Positions 16,184 to 30,828 of a stretch of 36,822 bases of DNA are shown here, piece by piece. Location: NCBI GenBank assembly GCA_019659055.1, contig JAIFWV010000004.1:1-36822 (forward strand), in the 5' to 3' direction. The notes beneath the pieces were generated by a model. That model made no database searches. It saw only the letters and a list, made by a program, of their open reading frames with translations, and was not told the origin of the DNA. The DNA comes from Candidatus Doudnabacteria bacterium. Its GTDB lineage: Bacteria; Patescibacteriota; Doudnabacteria; UBA920; O2-02-FULL-48-8. Position 1 is the first letter of the stretch. The number at the start of each line of letters is the position of its first letter. The position numbers and the translations under genes are program-made.

Positions 16184-17197
16184 CTACTGAATCCACATGC
16201 GTTCAAGTGCTTCGTAACGCACTGTTGTGGCGCTGATAACTTTCGCAGGAACCCGCCACGACTGCACGATGCGAATCTGCTCTGGATCACTGGGATCCTT
16301 GAAACTACTGATGTCAACCTCTCTTCCATCCGGCAGAATTGCCTTCTTGCCTGCTTGCCGGACAGGCTCCTTGTCGTACCCAGATGGTGGTTTGCCAACC
16401 CAGGGCGACACGCACCAATCGTGGATGAGCCAATTGCGTGACGAGTCTGGTGTCACGACTTCATCCCCGAGCGTCAAAAGACCTTCGTCATCGAAACCGA
16501 ACTCAAGCTTTGTATCGGCCACGATGATCCCGCGGCGCAAACCATGATTGTGTGTCTGGCGGTAAACTTCCATGCTATAGCGTGTGAGAGTCTGCACCAG
16601 GGATTCCGCTTTGTCCATGGGCATCCCCATTTCTTCCGCCACAATTTCGGCGGCTCGATAAGCGTCGATGTTCTGATCGTGCCCATCATTGGACTTTGTC
16701 GAGGGCGTGAAGATGGGCTCGGGCAATCTGTCTGCATCCTTCAGACCGGCTGACAGCTGGATTCCGCAGACCATTCCCGTAGCCTGGTAATCCTTGTACC
16801 CCGAACCTGTGATGTACCCTCGCACAATGCACTCAAGCGGAATCATGCGAAGCTTTTTCACGATCTGGATTTGACCCCACAGGTCCGAAACAGCCGGCAA
16901 AGCCGGAAGATAATCCACAGCCTCCTGGCCATGAGCCTCAAGATGATGCCGAATACCTCTGAGCACCTTTCGGAGGTTGTGGTTTGTGATTTCGGCCAGC
17001 ACCCGACCCTTCCCTGGAACATCTGCGTTGAGAACGTAGTCGAAGATACTCACCCGATTGGTCGTGAGCACCGCCAGCAGGCCTCGACCGAGCTCGAAGG
17101 TATCACGGACCTTGCCTTGGTTGATGCGTTTGAGACCGGCCTCGAGCAAAAGCCGGCTCAGATCTGATTCTCTTTTCGATTCCGGAATCGTTACCAT
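16184..17197 (-). CDS. purC: Phosphoribosylaminoimidazole-succinocarboxamide synthase
   Basis: INQGKVRDTFELGRGLLAVLTTNRVSIFDYVLN, ECIVRGYITGSGYKDYQ, GIIVADTKLEFGFD, SRNWLIHDW. Start MVTIPESK. Confidence 0.92.
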   Translation of the reverse strand: MVTIPESKRESDLSRLLLEAGLKRINQGKVRDTFELGRGLLAVLTTNRVSIFDYVLNADVPGKGRVLAEITNHNLRKVLRGIRHHLEAHGQEAVDYLPALPAVSDLWGQIQIVKKLRMIPLECIVRGYITGSGYKDYQATGMVCGIQLSAGLKDADRLPEPIFTPSTKSNDGHDQNIDAYRAAEIVAEEMGMPMDKAESLVQTLTRYSMEVYRQTHNHGLRRGIIVADTKLEFGFDDEGLLTLGDEVVTPDSSRNWLIHDWCVSPWVGKPPSGYDKEPVRQAGKKAILPDGREVDISSFKDPSDPEQIRIVQSWRVPAKVISATTVRYEALERMWIQ

Positions 17198-17201
17198 CGT
17201 T

Positions 17202-17714
17202 TCACCCCCTTGCCACGCCCATTTGGGCGGGCGGATTACTCTCTTCTCGATATTTGCGGAGTGCCTCGCGTACTTCTTCCCGCGCCACACCCACAATCTG
17301 GCAAGCCGCGATCGCGGCGTTGACGAACCCGGGTTTGCCGATACCAGCACACAGCACGGGCGTACCCGGCGGCATGCGAGTCAGCGACAGAAGCGCGTCC
17401 ATCGCGTTGGGAAACTCTGCTGACGGAAGTGCTACGCCAATAACAGGAACAAGCGCACCGGTCTTGGCCGCGATCGAACCGGCAAGTTGTGCTGCCATCC
17501 CCGCTCCCGTAACGTAAACGGCCATCGGGTGCCTGAACACCAATGTGTTAAGGTCGGGCTCGTTGCGATGAGTGGAACAAATAGACAGTTCCCAGTCGAC
17601 ACCGCACTTTGTGAGAATCTCACCGGCCTTCGAGTCGTCAAAAAAAGACCGATCTGACTTGCTTCCGATTACGAACACAACGTCCGTCTCGTCTCGATCG
17701 TTTTCGTAACTCAT
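17202..17714 (-). CDS. purE: PurE-like 5-(carboxyamino)imidazole ribonucleotide mutase / AIR carboxylase
   Basis: VVFVIGSKSDRSFFDD, STHRNEPD, AVYVTGAGMAAQLAGSIAAKTGALVPVIGVALPSAEFPNAMDALLSLTRMPPGTPVLC. Confidence 0.9.
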   Translation of the reverse strand: MSYENDRDETDVVFVIGSKSDRSFFDDSKAGEILTKCGVDWELSICSTHRNEPDLNTLVFRHPMAVYVTGAGMAAQLAGSIAAKTGALVPVIGVALPSAEFPNAMDALLSLTRMPPGTPVLCAGIGKPGFVNAAIAACQIVGVAREEVREALRKYREESNPPAQMGVARG

Positions 17715-17715
17715 A

Positions 17716-19032
17716 TCACTCTCCTCCGAAAACTTGCGAAAAAATGTAATCGACGTGTTTGATCTTTTCTTTCAGATCGAAACAGCCGATAATCTCCGCT
17801 TCGGAAATCCGTTCGCGGATCTCGCCGGTGTTGATGAGGGCTTTCTGGAAATCCTCCCCTGTCTCCCAGCATCGCTGAGCAATTTCGTACACGAGCCCGT
17901 AGGCTTGTTGACGCGGAAGACCGCTTTTTTCTGCGATCAAGGCCTGGACTTCCTGTGAGTAAACCAATCCCTTCGTGAGATTCAGATTGGCCGCCATCCG
18001 CTCCGGGAACACCGACCATCCTGCCACGATTTTCGTAAACCGCGCCAAGATGTAATCCATGAGGATCGATGCGTCCGGCAGAATGATGCGCTCTGGACCG
18101 GAGTTTGAGATATCCCGCTCGTGCCAAGTGACTTGATTTGCAAACGCCACCTGAACGAAAGCCTGGATTACATGTGTCAGACCAGAGATGTTCTCACCGC
18201 CCACCGGGTTACGTTTGTGCGGCATAGCCGACGAACCCTTTTGGCCTTTGCGGAATGGTTCTTGGAGTTCGCGGACCTCTGTCTGCTGCATGAGCCGGCT
18301 TGTGGTTGCAAACTTGCGGATCGAACCGGCAATGAGTCCGAGCACTGTCATGTACTCAGCGATAATATCGCGTGAGATGACTTGCGTCGCGATCACGGGA
18401 CTCAGTCCCAGGCGTCGACAGACGATTTGCTCGACCTTGGGATCGAGTGTGTACATGCCCACTGCGCCGGACAGCTTCCCTACTGCCAGACGGTCCATCA
18501 ATTGTTCCATCCGTTCTGTATGGCGGATCATCTCGTCATACCAATTGGCCAGCTTCACGCCAAATGTGATCGGTTCGGCATGCACTATGTGTGTGCGGCC
18601 AATCATAGGCGTGTACTTGTGTTCGAAGGCGCGCTTCTTCAGCATGTCCATTAAGCCGCTGACTCCCGCCATTATCAGCTTGAGGCTTGCCACAAGCTGC
18701 ATCATAAGACTTGTGTCCCCCGGATCCATGGAGGTCATCTTGCCATGCCAGTGCGGACGAAGCTCTTCCGGTAATTGCGGTGAGGTATATTCGAGAAACG
18801 ATACAACATCGTGACCGTTGCCGGGTTTTTCGGGGGTACCAACCTCGAGCAGTTCGATCGCTGCGGCATCGATTTTGATTCGATCCCCGAGATTTTCCGG
18901 CACAGTTACCTCAATTTCTCCAAGTTCTGCCCGCGCGCGCATGGCCTCGGTTTCAACGAGTACCCAATATCGAAACCTCTGATCGTCGCTCCAGATCTCA
19001 CCCATCGGTTCACGAGTGTATCGCTTAATCAT
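17716..19032 (-). CDS. purB: Adenylosuccinate lyase
   Basis: MIGRTHIVHAEPITFG, GSSAMPHKRNPVGGENISGL signature; start MIKRYTREPMGEIWSD with SD CTGGAGGATCG. Confidence 0.93.
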   Translation of the reverse strand: MIKRYTREPMGEIWSDDQRFRYWVLVETEAMRARAELGEIEVTVPENLGDRIKIDAAAIELLEVGTPEKPGNGHDVVSFLEYTSPQLPEELRPHWHGKMTSMDPGDTSLMMQLVASLKLIMAGVSGLMDMLKKRAFEHKYTPMIGRTHIVHAEPITFGVKLANWYDEMIRHTERMEQLMDRLAVGKLSGAVGMYTLDPKVEQIVCRRLGLSPVIATQVISRDIIAEYMTVLGLIAGSIRKFATTSRLMQQTEVRELQEPFRKGQKGSSAMPHKRNPVGGENISGLTHVIQAFVQVAFANQVTWHERDISNSGPERIILPDASILMDYILARFTKIVAGWSVFPERMAANLNLTKGLVYSQEVQALIAEKSGLPRQQAYGLVYEIAQRCWETGEDFQKALINTGEIRERISEAEIIGCFDLKEKIKHVDYIFSQVFGGE

Positions 19033-19086
19033 TCGATCCTCCAGATCCAAATAAAAGTGCACATCAAGCGGATTGCCTGATTCCAT

Positions 19087-19116
19087 AGGATACCAAATCT
19101 TAGCACTATTCGGCAA
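19087..19116 (-). promoter_or_regulatory. purBEC promoter
   Basis: TTGCCG - 18 bp - TATCCT on the minus strand, directly after the ftsZ terminator. Confidence 0.6.
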
Positions 19117-19142
19117 ATAAAAAACCCACCTCATCGGCGGGT
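19117..19142 (-). terminator. ftsZ terminator
   Basis: ACCCGCCgatgAGGTGGGT TTTTTATTTGCC on the minus strand. Confidence 0.85.
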
Positions 19143-26392: not shown

Positions 26393-27709
26393 ATGAGAAT
26401 TCCACTAGTCGCCATCATCGGCCTGCCCAACTCGGGCAAATCCACTCTTTATAACAAAATCCTGCACCGCTATACAGCGCTGGTGCATGACTTGGCGGGC
26501 ACGACCCGCGACCGCGCCTACGGTCTGACCGAATGGAACGGCTTGTCTTTTTATCTCATCGACACCGCCGGCATTGTCCACCGGGCCGACTCGGAACTGG
26601 AAAAAAATATCCAAAAGCAGACCGCGATTGCCGCAGAAGAATCCGACGTCATCGTTTTGGTTGTCGATGGCAAAACCCCGGTCTCAGACAAAGATTTCCA
26701 AGTCGCCCAACAGCTGACCCGGCTCAAGAAGCCGATTATTTTAGCTGTGAATAAAATCGACGCCCGCAATCCCAAAACCGAAGAACAAATTGCCTCCTAC
26801 CAGAAGCTTGGTCTCGACCTGCAAGCAACCTCAGCCGTCAACGGTGCCGGGGTTGGCGACCTTCTGGATATGATTACGACCAGCCTTGAGACATTTAAAG
26901 CCGAACGAATCGAGGATCCCGACCGCATCAAGATCGCTTTTTTGGGCAAACCAAACGTCGGGAAATCGTCGCTGATCAATGCTCTCATCAAACAAGAGCG
27001 CTTGCTGGTGCACGACAAGGCCGGGACCACCCGCTCCACTGTGGAAATCCCATTTGAATCCAATGAGCATAAATTTATGCTTCTCGATACAGCCGGGATC
27101 AAGCGCAAATGGAAACAAGATTCCGATGTCGAAGCCGCTGCTGCATTCCAGTCGATTAAAACTCTCTCACACACCGACGTCGCCTTATTTGTGGTCGACG
27201 GCTCACAGGAAATCACAGTCCAGGACCAAGTCGTGGCCTCGGATATTTTGGATCAGCACAAACCAGTCGTCCTGCTCATGAACAAAACCGATCTCCTCAA
27301 CGAAGAGCAGCGCGACCAGCTCCTCACCGAGCTTCCTAACTACCTGCCCATGCTGTGGTTTGCCCCTGTGCTCTTTACTTCCGCCCCCACTGGGCAAGGT
27401 TTGGATTTGCTGTTAAAATTTGCTTACGAAGTGCACACTTTGGCCGACCGCGAGGTCGAACCCGAGGTTTTGGATCAGTTTTTAGACAAGATCATTGCCG
27501 AAAATATGCCGGGGAAGGTCGAAGACGAACGGGCGCCGAAAATTTACAACATCAAACAAACCGGCACGCGGCCGCCGGTGTTCCGAATCACTGTGAACTT
27601 TCCGTCCTCCCTCGCCGAATCCTGGAAGCGATGGTTCGAAAAACAGTTCCGCTTAAGGTTTGGTTTCGAAGGCACACCAATAATTATTAAATACATAAGA
27701 AAACAGTAA
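26393..27709 (+). CDS. der: Ribosome-associated double GTPase Der
   Basis: Two G domains: GLPNSGKSTLYNKI and GKPNVGKSSLINALI; C-terminal KH-like domain. Confidence 0.96.
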   Translation: MRIPLVAIIGLPNSGKSTLYNKILHRYTALVHDLAGTTRDRAYGLTEWNGLSFYLIDTAGIVHRADSELEKNIQKQTAIAAEESDVIVLVVDGKTPVSDKDFQVAQQLTRLKKPIILAVNKIDARNPKTEEQIASYQKLGLDLQATSAVNGAGVGDLLDMITTSLETFKAERIEDPDRIKIAFLGKPNVGKSSLINALIKQERLLVHDKAGTTRSTVEIPFESNEHKFMLLDTAGIKRKWKQDSDVEAAAAFQSIKTLSHTDVALFVVDGSQEITVQDQVVASDILDQHKPVVLLMNKTDLLNEEQRDQLLTELPNYLPMLWFAPVLFTSAPTGQGLDLLLKFAYEVHTLADREVEPEVLDQFLDKIIAENMPGKVEDERAPKIYNIKQTGTRPPVFRITVNFPSSLAESWKRWFEKQFRLRFGFEGTPIIIKYIRKQ

Positions 27710-28251
27710 TGTACCTTATAGTTGGCCTGGGGAATCCGGGCGCAAAATACGAACAAACTCGTCACAACCTGGGATTTATGGTCCTGGATCTTTTGGCAGG
27801 AGCCGATGCGCCTTGGGAATTGAAGTATGATTCGCAATTTTTAAAACTAAATGACGTTATCTTGGCCAAACCTCAGACGTTCATGAATAATTCAGGCAAG
27901 GCGGTGGCGCAAATCCTCAAATTTTATCCGGATGCCGAGCTAGTCGTCGTCCACGACGAGCTGGATATCGAACTGGGCACAATCCGCATCCAAAAAAATG
28001 TTTCTGCGGCCGGGCACAACGGAGTCCAGTCTATCATCGATGAAATCGGTACCCAAGATTTCATCCGCATAAGGCTTGGGACCAACGATCCCCCTCTGCG
28101 GGGACAAGTGCCAGGCGAAGATTATGTCTTGCAAAATTTCCAAGCCGAAGAACAAACGCTGGTAAAAGAAGTACTCGAAAAATCAATCAAAGCCCTCGAG
28201 ACTATTCAGACCGAAGGATTCGAAATCGCCCAATCCAAGTTTAATGGGTAA
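27709..28251 (+). CDS. pth: Peptidyl-tRNA hydrolase
   Basis: YLIVGLGNPGAKYEQTRHNLGFMVLD, KPQTFMNNSGKAV, VVVHDELDIELG, GHNGVQSI. Confidence 0.96.
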   Translation: MYLIVGLGNPGAKYEQTRHNLGFMVLDLLAGADAPWELKYDSQFLKLNDVILAKPQTFMNNSGKAVAQILKFYPDAELVVVHDELDIELGTIRIQKNVSAAGHNGVQSIIDEIGTQDFIRIRLGTNDPPLRGQVPGEDYVLQNFQAEEQTLVKEVLEKSIKALETIQTEGFEIAQSKFNG

Positions 28252-28445: not shown

Positions 28446-28691
28446 TTAGTGTTCCCGTAACCTCATGCCTTCAGCGCGCAGCCACTCCATGAGCGCCTTG
28501 CGCTGCTTGGGCTCGAGATCCAAGGGATGCTCGAGGACCTCGCGAACCAACAGTCGCGACTGCTGATTGGGGGCCACGTTGGCGAGGACAAATACCGGCG
28601 ATTGTCCGGCGATCTCTGTCACCGGCTCACCGAATTCCTCGATCTGGAACCCCTTGAGGCTGAGACTCTCGCGTCTTGATACTGGGATCAT
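28446..28691 (-). CDS. Hypothetical small protein
   Basis: 81 aa; SD-like CGGAG upstream; third gene of a minus-strand unit. Confidence 0.5.
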   Translation of the reverse strand: MIPVSRRESLSLKGFQIEEFGEPVTEIAGQSPVFVLANVAPNQQSRLLVREVLEHPLDLEPKQRKALMEWLRAEGMRLREH

Positions 28692-28770: not shown

Positions 28771-29010
28771 CTAGTTACGGAACAGGTTGTCCCATTCCTT
28801 TTTCACCGCGTCCGCGGTATTCACACTCGTGCTCGATGAGCTCGGTGTGGTCTGTTTTTTCGGTTGCACCGGAGGCGGGGCTGGGGCGGGTTTCAGCAAG
28901 CGAGGAGCCTGCTGGGAAGGATTTCCGGGAGGCACCAGACTGCTTTTGCGCAGTTCTGATGATTCTCTCCGCAGAAACGAACCCACCGCACGTGTAGACG
29001 CTTTTGCCAT
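28771..29010 (-). CDS. Hypothetical small Pro-rich protein
   Basis: 79 aa MAKASTRAVGSFLRRESSELRKSSLVPP...; GAGGGAG upstream. A competing overlapping ORF (28775..29014) exists in another frame. Confidence 0.45.
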   Translation of the reverse strand: MAKASTRAVGSFLRRESSELRKSSLVPPGNPSQQAPRLLKPAPAPPPVQPKKQTTPSSSSTSVNTADAVKKEWDNLFRN

Positions 29011-29030: not shown

Positions 29031-29249
29031 TTAGTCGTAGTCGATCTGCTTCAGGGCTTGCGTGATCGTCCGCCGAGGCCGCGTCACGAACCGATATTTC
29101 ACCTCGGTGATGACTGCCGCCAGCACGAACGCGACATTGAGCACCCAGAATGGAACTGTGCTCTGGGTGAGCAATGACGTGACCATCAAGCAGATGATGT
29201 ACGCCAACACGAACTTCGCGACAACGCTGTACGGTACCGGCATGGCCAT
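29031..29249 (-). CDS. Hypothetical small protein with two TM helices
   Basis: MAMPVPYSVVAKFVLAYIICLMVTSLLTQSTVPFWVLNVAFVLAAVITEVKYRF; SD TAAGGAGAT. Confidence 0.6.
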   Translation of the reverse strand: MAMPVPYSVVAKFVLAYIICLMVTSLLTQSTVPFWVLNVAFVLAAVITEVKYRFVTRPRRTITQALKQIDYD

Positions 29250-29282: not shown

Positions 29283-29517
29283 AAAAAAATCGCACCAGCT
29301 ACTTACTTATAATACTACTACAAATAAATAACTAATGCGATTTACTGTGCTTAACCCTACCTACGAGCGCAGGACATGTACGGAAAACCGCACCGGCCCT
29401 GACTTGTGGCTACTTACAAACAATAGGAGGGATGCTGCTTGCGTTCGCCGCTGCGTAAGTAGGGTAAAAAACAGTATTTCACTAAAATGTACGACTCGAG
29501 AAGGTTTATTATTCCAA
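29283..29517 (-). ncRNA. Structured leader RNA or independent sRNA
   Basis: Minus-strand promoter TTGACA-17-TAAAAT at 29552-29524; closing helix ACCCTACTTACGCAG/CTGCGctcGTAGGTAGGGT; terminator AAATCGCA..TGCGATTTTTTT. Confidence 0.65.
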
Positions 29518-29523
29518 CATCTA

Positions 29524-29552
29524 ATTTTAGCAAATTTTTGCGAGTTTGTCAA
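29524..29552 (-). promoter_or_regulatory. Near-consensus sigma70 promoter
   Basis: TTGACA (29552-29547), 17-bp spacer, TAAAAT (29529-29524). Confidence 0.8.
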
Positions 29553-29612
29553 TACTACTGTAAAATACCCTTGAAATACCCCTTTATTTATGCCAGGTAG
29601 TAGAAGTTTGAT

Positions 29613-29640
29613 ATTTGTTTCCGGTACACCGGAAACAAAT
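29613..29640. repeat. Perfect 13-bp-arm palindrome upstream of dprA
   Basis: ATTTGTTTCCGGT AC ACCGGAAACAAAT. Confidence 0.85.
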
Positions 29641-29733
29641 CAAAAGTTTAGTGATTTCTGCTGCTTGATGAATCTTATAGAACCGTAGTTATCGCTAATT
29701 ATCGATTTTTTAATCAAATTTTCACTACCTGGT

Positions 29734-30828
29734 ATGGCCAATCCGGAAGAAGAGATGTTTGCCAACGCCCTCAATCTCATCCCTATGCTAGGGCCGGTTC
29801 GACTTGCCCATATGCGTGGAAAATTTGGGACCTATGAGAAAGCTTGGATGGCCAAGCGCGCCGACTACGTCGCCATCGGTTTCAATCCCAAACTGGTCGA
29901 ACAAATAGTCTCGCTCAAAGAGCAAATCGACCCGAGTGCCGAATACGGCAAACTCGGCCGGCACGGGATCAGCATCGTACTTATAAATAGCGGGCAGTAC
30001 CCGGATCAGCTCAAAGAAATTTCCGCCGCCCCGCCTATACTCTATATCCGGGGCCAGATCCAAGTTCTCAATACCACCTGTATCGCTGTGGTTGGAACGC
30101 GCAAGATCACGGTTTATGGCAAGCGAGCCGCAGACGAAATTGTCGGCGGGTTGGTCAGCTCGGGCCTAACCATTGCCTCAGGTCTGGCCTACGGCATCGA
30201 TGGTGCCGCACTCACAGCCGCCCTCAATAACGGCGGCCGCACGATCGCGGTCTTGGCCACCCCGCTGGATGATGATTCGATTTCACCCCGGACCAATTAC
30301 AACCTGGCTCAGAGAATTCTCGAAAGCGGCTGTATTATTTCCGAATACGGGCTGGGCGCATCGGTTCAAAAACAAAACTTTCCTATCCGCAACCGGATTC
30401 TTTCCGGATTGGGCATTGGGACTTTGGTCATTGAAGCCGACGTCGATTCGGGATCATTGATTACCGCAAGCTACGCCTTGGAGCAGAACCGGGAAGTTTT
30501 TGCCGTGCCGGGATCGATCTTTTCCGAAGTCTCGCGCGGGACCAACAATCTCATCAAAAAAGGCGCTAAGCTTGTCACCACTCACCTCGATATCCTCGAA
30601 GAACTCAACCTCGATGTGGCCCTCACCACTGAATTTGAAACGGGCCAGGACACCACGGACGAAGAACAAAAAATTATTGATTCGCTAAGCCGCGAACCGG
30701 TCCATATCGACGAGCTCGTACGCGCCTTAGGTCTGCCGGCGGCCGAAATTAATTCCACTCTGGTCATGCTTGAGATGAAAGGCCGCGTCAAAAACTTCGG
30801 CGGCGCCAAATTCGCCAAAATTAGATGA
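29734..30828 (+). CDS. dprA: DNA processing protein DprA
   Basis: IAVVGTRKITVYGKRAADEIVGGLVSSGLTIASGLAYGIDGAAL; FPIRNRILSGLGIGTLVIEADVDSGSLITASYALEQNREVFAVPG. Confidence 0.95.
   Translation: MANPEEEMFANALNLIPMLGPVRLAHMRGKFGTYEKAWMAKRADYVAIGFNPKLVEQIVSLKEQIDPSAEYGKLGRHGISIVLINSGQYPDQLKEISAAPPILYIRGQIQVLNTTCIAVVGTRKITVYGKRAADEIVGGLVSSGLTIASGLAYGIDGAALTAALNNGGRTIAVLATPLDDDSISPRTNYNLAQRILESGCIISEYGLGASVQKQNFPIRNRILSGLGIGTLVIEADVDSGSLITASYALEQNREVFAVPGSIFSEVSRGTNNLIKKGAKLVTTHLDILEELNLDVALTTEFETGQDTTDEEQKIIDSLSREPVHIDELVRALGLPAAEINSTLVMLEMKGRVKNFGGAKFAKIR

Follow-up and report, generated by a model that had tools for sequence, protein, structure and literature searches.

A near-universal, single-copy structured RNA of Candidatus Doudnabacteria presents an invariant loop resembling an anti-Shine-Dalgarno sequence

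We report a structured RNA on the minus strand of a 36,822-nucleotide stretch of DNA (the window) from a Candidatus Doudnabacteria genome (CPR/Patescibacteria; 0.9 Mb, 39 contigs). By its sequence landmarks it is a stand-alone RNA gene, with a predicted promoter, a core of ~130 nt and an intrinsic terminator. Comparison of homologous sequences demonstrates the RNA gene, its structure, an invariant loop (L3), promoter, terminator and a constant place between pth and dprA. We infer that L3 may pair with Shine-Dalgarno (SD) sequences of the GGAGG type, thereby blocking or tuning ribosome access. A minus-strand structured RNA with promoter and terminator and of no known family had been foreseen in the original prediction, and that part stood; its reading as an attenuator or riboswitch of a downstream two-TM gene did not.

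The transcription unit comprises the following features.

29524..29552, minus strand: promoter, with TTGACA at 29552-29547, a 17-nt spacer, TAAAAT at 29529-29524 and a TG ahead of the -10
29283..29517, minus strand: inferred transcript of ~235 nt, its start placed ~7 nt past the -10 and its end at the T run
29283..29343, minus strand: intrinsic terminator, a 26-bp hairpin followed by a T run, sequence not conserved

The promoter TTGACA-17-TAAAAT, claimed at the outset, indeed lies at 29552-29524 with 11 of 12 consensus matches, and the claimed terminator AAATCGCA...TGCGATTTTTTT was likewise found at 29343-29283. Consensus matches of the RNA's own promoter and terminator are kept among homologues: a promoter scoring at least 10 of 12 occurs upstream of 42 of 50 of them, compared with 4.8% of shuffled upstream regions, and a terminator follows the core by 20-60 nt in many homologue loci. 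These landmarks predict a length of ~235 nt, and the RNA is probably strongly transcribed and abundant. Upstream of the promoter, between the RNA and dprA, the window also contains an inverted repeat at 29607-29646 (TTTGTTTCCGG TGTA CCGGAAACAAA), which gave only chance-level Rfam hits.

The conserved core has the following anatomy, all on the minus strand.

29343..29474: conserved RNA core with a three-way junction (covariance model R1, 135 bits, E 5.9e-30; covariation)
29458..29474: P1 closing helix, 5' strand, partner 29361-29345 (15/15 pairs compensatory)
29345..29361: P1 closing helix, 3' strand (covariation)
29449..29453: P2, 5' strand, partner 29369-29365 (covariation)
29365..29369: P2, 3' strand (covariation)
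29447..29449 with 29410-29408: P2a, a short GGC/GCC helix (letters of 50 sequences)
29435..29442: P3, 5' strand, partner 29423-29416 (8/8 pairs compensatory)
29416..29423: P3, 3' strand (covariation)
29424..29434: L3 loop CAUCCCUCCUA, 11 nt, anti-Shine-Dalgarno-like (CCCUCCU in 50/50)
29396..29401: P4 lower stem, 5' strand, partner 29375-29370 (covariation)
29370..29375: P4 lower stem, 3' strand (covariation)
29378..29393: P4 upper hairpin with a UUUU loop (6/6 pairs compensatory)

P1 leads through P2 into the three-way junction, whose arms are P2a-P3, carrying L3, and P4, which keeps its shape while its sequence varies. Folding energy of the full transcript stands at z = -6.97 and that of the core at z = -5.3, with none of 200 shuffles equal. 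The covariation anticipated for the core was indeed found in homologues, whose cores share a mean pairwise identity of 59% (50 sequences). In a plain sequence alignment of 15 sequences, 97.1% of structure cells are paired and compensatory changes occur in 29 of 40 pairs, which none of 500 shuffles reached; in 50 distinct sequences, aligned by fitting to the model and hence biased towards the structure, the figures are 94.1% and 39 of 40, again with no shuffle reaching them. Sliding the partners by 1-3 columns abolished the signal. The long-range pairing of CUACUUAC with GUAGGUAGGG, proposed from the window and with its letters in place, proved to belong to a real helix of 15 pairs; compensatory changes occur in 10 of these when 15 homologues are compared and in all 15 when the 50 are.

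Within the P2a-P3 arm, an internal loop places GAA (29446-29444) opposite AGUA (29414-29411) on the minus strand, which we take, on letters only, to be a putative bulged-G (sarcin-ricin)-like module; these letters are present in most families and lost in one. A likeness of the junction letters GGYGAA...GUAAC..AAG to the 16S decoding region was dropped, since P2a and the GAA/AGUA loop explain them in most members; that the same letters change in other families argues further against it. A pairing of L3 with P1 was also discarded because other families have a different sequence in P1.

When the region was searched by BLAST, 10 of the family's 13 other genomes gave hits of 73-85% identity, confined to ~130 nt. 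With a covariance model built from 15 sequences, 43 of the 50 Candidatus Doudnabacteria genomes searched across the order proved to carry the RNA, including 33 of the 36 of good quality. There is one copy per genome; the only additional match, in one genome, lies on the opposite strand of the locus already counted. Across the phylum, eight genomes of other families among 382 matched and a wider model added two, counts that are lower bounds because filtering was strict and only a few candidates were taken from each genome. The RNA is also present in about ten other families of the phylum, and the named relatives that carry it are almost all Doudnabacteria or Patescibacteria. It was not found in the plasmid collection, nor in the viral contigs. 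Against Rfam 15, at gathering and at permissive thresholds, the window and eight diverged homologue loci gave no match for the RNA, only chance-level hits, in agreement with the original reading, which did not recognise it as 6S, SRP, tmRNA or RNase P. No account of an RNA of this kind from CPR was found in the open-access literature, although an earlier account elsewhere is possible.

The position of the gene was compared at 38 loci. In the window the neighbours are as follows.

27709..28251, plus strand: pth (peptidyl-tRNA hydrolase), a convergent neighbour retained throughout the phylum
28446-28691, 28771-29010 and 29031-29249, minus strand: small SD-bearing ORFs that separate pth from the RNA, the last being the two-TM gene
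29734..30828, plus strand: dprA, divergent neighbour, usually kept

At nearly all of these loci the RNA is directed towards the 3' end of pth, and at most of them it is divergent from dprA, other families included. In most families pth lies 30-270 nt from the core. The window's family alone has small ORFs in this interval, of which the two-TM gene is one of several; in relatives the interval encodes different small proteins, some of them hydrophobic in part. It follows that the RNA does not serve the gene downstream of it, as pth is convergent and the intervening ORFs are family-specific.

This arrangement bears directly on whether the RNA is a cis-acting attenuator or riboswitch for the two-TM gene, as originally proposed. 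The window's terminator does end ~35 nt ahead of the two-TM ORF, and a start codon with an SD stands close behind the RNA in some family members (L026, L028). However, in most loci a terminator and then the convergent pth follow the RNA, and the downstream gene is not conserved. The alternative pairings on which the proposal relied fared no better: both copies of GUAAGUAG (29417-29410 and 29306-29299) are in place, but they are not conserved as partners. For 29417-29410, 68.4% of cells pair compared with 66.2% in shuffles, and of 50 loci only that of the window has the 29306-29299 partner, letter for letter, in its 3' flank. Nor are the helices mutually exclusive as had been claimed, for the lowest-energy fold contains both the long-range helix and the terminator hairpin. 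Since neither the downstream gene nor the alternative pairings are conserved, we removed the attenuator or riboswitch reading, which we now regard as very improbable; the RNA does not keep a place ahead of any particular gene or pathway, and the loci share no conserved helix that excludes the terminator.

Among the housekeeping RNAs of the lineage, tmRNA and RNase P RNA were found in relatives. RF00169 gave no SRP RNA match in 288 genomes of the phylum, which would leave room for the RNA described here to be the lineage's SRP RNA in unrecognised form. It shares with bacterial small SRP RNA its single copy, structured nature and size of ~100-130 nt. However, it has no helix-8 motif, and the protein partner is absent as well: the Ffh M domain (PF02978) was found in 0 of 21 relatives while 14 of 14 controls were positive, and no SRP GTPase signature occurred in ~800 kb of the relative G005. 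The lack of the Ffh M domain makes it very unlikely that the RNA serves in an SRP. Doudnabacteria seem to lack a signal recognition particle altogether (genomes G000-G021 of the order and the phylum sample).

The lineage also appears to be without a recognisable 6S RNA, as RF00013 had no match in 21 genomes of relatives, while tmRNA and RNase P RNA were found. The RNA could be another scaffold or regulatory RNP, perhaps one that binds RNA polymerase as a functional counterpart of 6S RNA that has diverged far from it, and the strong promoter, the housekeeping size and the long closing stem, which 6S RNA shares, would suit such an abundant RNA. Its core, however, is a three-way junction without the large central open bubble of 6S RNA, cmscan found no similarity to RF00013, and the invariant loop has no role in this model, which we consider improbable.

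The loop itself is the most constant part of the molecule. CCCUCCU occurs in 50 of 50 sequences and AUCCCUCCU in 48 of 50, and L3 has a mean unpaired probability of 0.85, so the conserved and accessible CCUCC motif that characterises anti-SD sRNAs is present. L3 (CAUCCCUCCUA) is similar to the tail of 16S rRNA, AUCACCUCCUUU, whose anti-SD part it matches, and can thus be written as the complement of SD sequences; in the genome of a relative, 16S rRNA ends in the canonical GGATCACCTCCTTTCT. Such a loop could be read by a protein rather than by pairing, with the RNA acting as a mimic of the 16S rRNA 3' tail that stores or titrates a ribosomal, assembly or ribosome-associated protein. The similarity of AUC-CCUCCU to the tail AUCACCUCCU, the rigid arm with its possible bulged-G module under the loop and the near-universal, single-copy gene favour this idea, as do the reduced sets of ribosome biogenesis factors in CPR (PMC12641178). 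On the other hand, the loop lacks one A of GAUCACCUCC, and we see the mimic as a possibility of rather low probability. It is the nearest rival of SD pairing, followed by the other RNP role.

SD use in these genomes is sparse. Most housekeeping genes in the window have no SD, and in relative G005 (~800 kb) a strong SD precedes 39 of 635 predicted genes (~6%) while 503 of the 635 are without any SD-like tetramer tested, although the SD share is probably underestimated because gene starts were set at the first ATG. The SD-bearing genes of G005 are richer in GC (52.5% versus 47.3%, p = 6e-11) and, by sequence inspection only, include purine genes, small membrane proteins and lipoproteins, hypotheticals and a few ribosomal proteins. 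The predicted loop:SD duplex has a median of -10.9 versus -2.3 kcal/mol, a contrast that arises partly by construction. In the window, a purC-purE-purB cluster occupies 16184-19134 on the minus strand, with a strong GGAGG SD at purE; ahead of the purE start codon in G005 stands AGGAGGGAT, which is complementary to almost the whole RNA loop.

The full 10-nt loop complement TAGGAGGGAT was rare outside the RNA gene in 14 genomes, the other sites lay off start codons and no conserved specific target emerged. Most of these outside sites fall in a repeat-like element. This element (...TCGCTCTTAGGAGGGATCTCTC...CGAGATGG) occurs at L079, L090 (G000:C12:40050, C35:13291), L083, L089 and L091 (G004), and its reverse strand carries ATCCCTCCTA, like the RNA loop.

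Precedents exist for loops of this kind. Known anti-SD sRNAs are usually less conserved and have no conserved three-way junction, which counts against the pairing model. In Firmicutes, sRNAs of the RsaE/RoxS type pair with SD regions through a C-rich loop; the Doudnabacteria RNA has such a loop in common with them but differs in architecture and phylum, and no Rfam match links the two. In S. meliloti, NfeR1 silences mRNAs via CCUCCUCCC anti-SD loops (PMC10746234). The alpha-r14/NfeR1 'cuckoo'-type sRNAs of Alphaproteobacteria resemble the Doudnabacteria RNA in being stand-alone, with an ultraconserved unpaired CCUCC-containing motif and variable stem sequences (PMC10746234). They consist, however, of three separate hairpins each with CCUCCUCCC; the Doudnabacteria RNA has no such series of hairpins and displays a single AUCCCUCCU loop, carried by one arm of its three-way junction, and Rfam covariance models reveal no similarity between them. 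The RNA is thus a new family, functionally closest to anti-SD sRNAs and unusual in its architecture and depth of conservation.

Because few genes of G005 carry a strong SD and rhizobia offer known cases of anti-SD sRNAs whose pairing silences mRNAs, we propose that the RNA acts in trans by pairing through L3 with a few SD-bearing mRNAs, a reading to which we give an even chance. The P2a-P3 arm would present L3 as an equivalent of the ribosome's anti-Shine-Dalgarno tail; L3 would base-pair with GGAGG-type SDs of mRNAs, and this pairing may block or tune ribosome access. As only a few percent of G005 genes have a strong SD, pairing would select few mRNAs rather than shut down translation in general. 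The targets would be a small set, namely purine genes, small membrane and lipoprotein ORFs, probably acquired genes, and a few ribosomal-protein genes. The constancy and single copy of the RNA could equally mean a protein-binding, housekeeping role. A bolder extension of SD pairing, which we think doubtful, is an RNA-based filter against foreign genes, in which a housekeeping RNA of SD-poor bacteria would hold down strong-SD mRNAs, mainly those of acquired genes.

To conclude, an apparently undescribed, nearly universal and single-copy structured RNA is added to a branch of the CPR that seemingly has neither SRP nor a recognisable 6S RNA. It carries an invariant anti-SD loop in genomes that hardly use SDs, and it offers a testable handle on translation and on the control of acquired genes in uncultured bacteria with reduced genomes.
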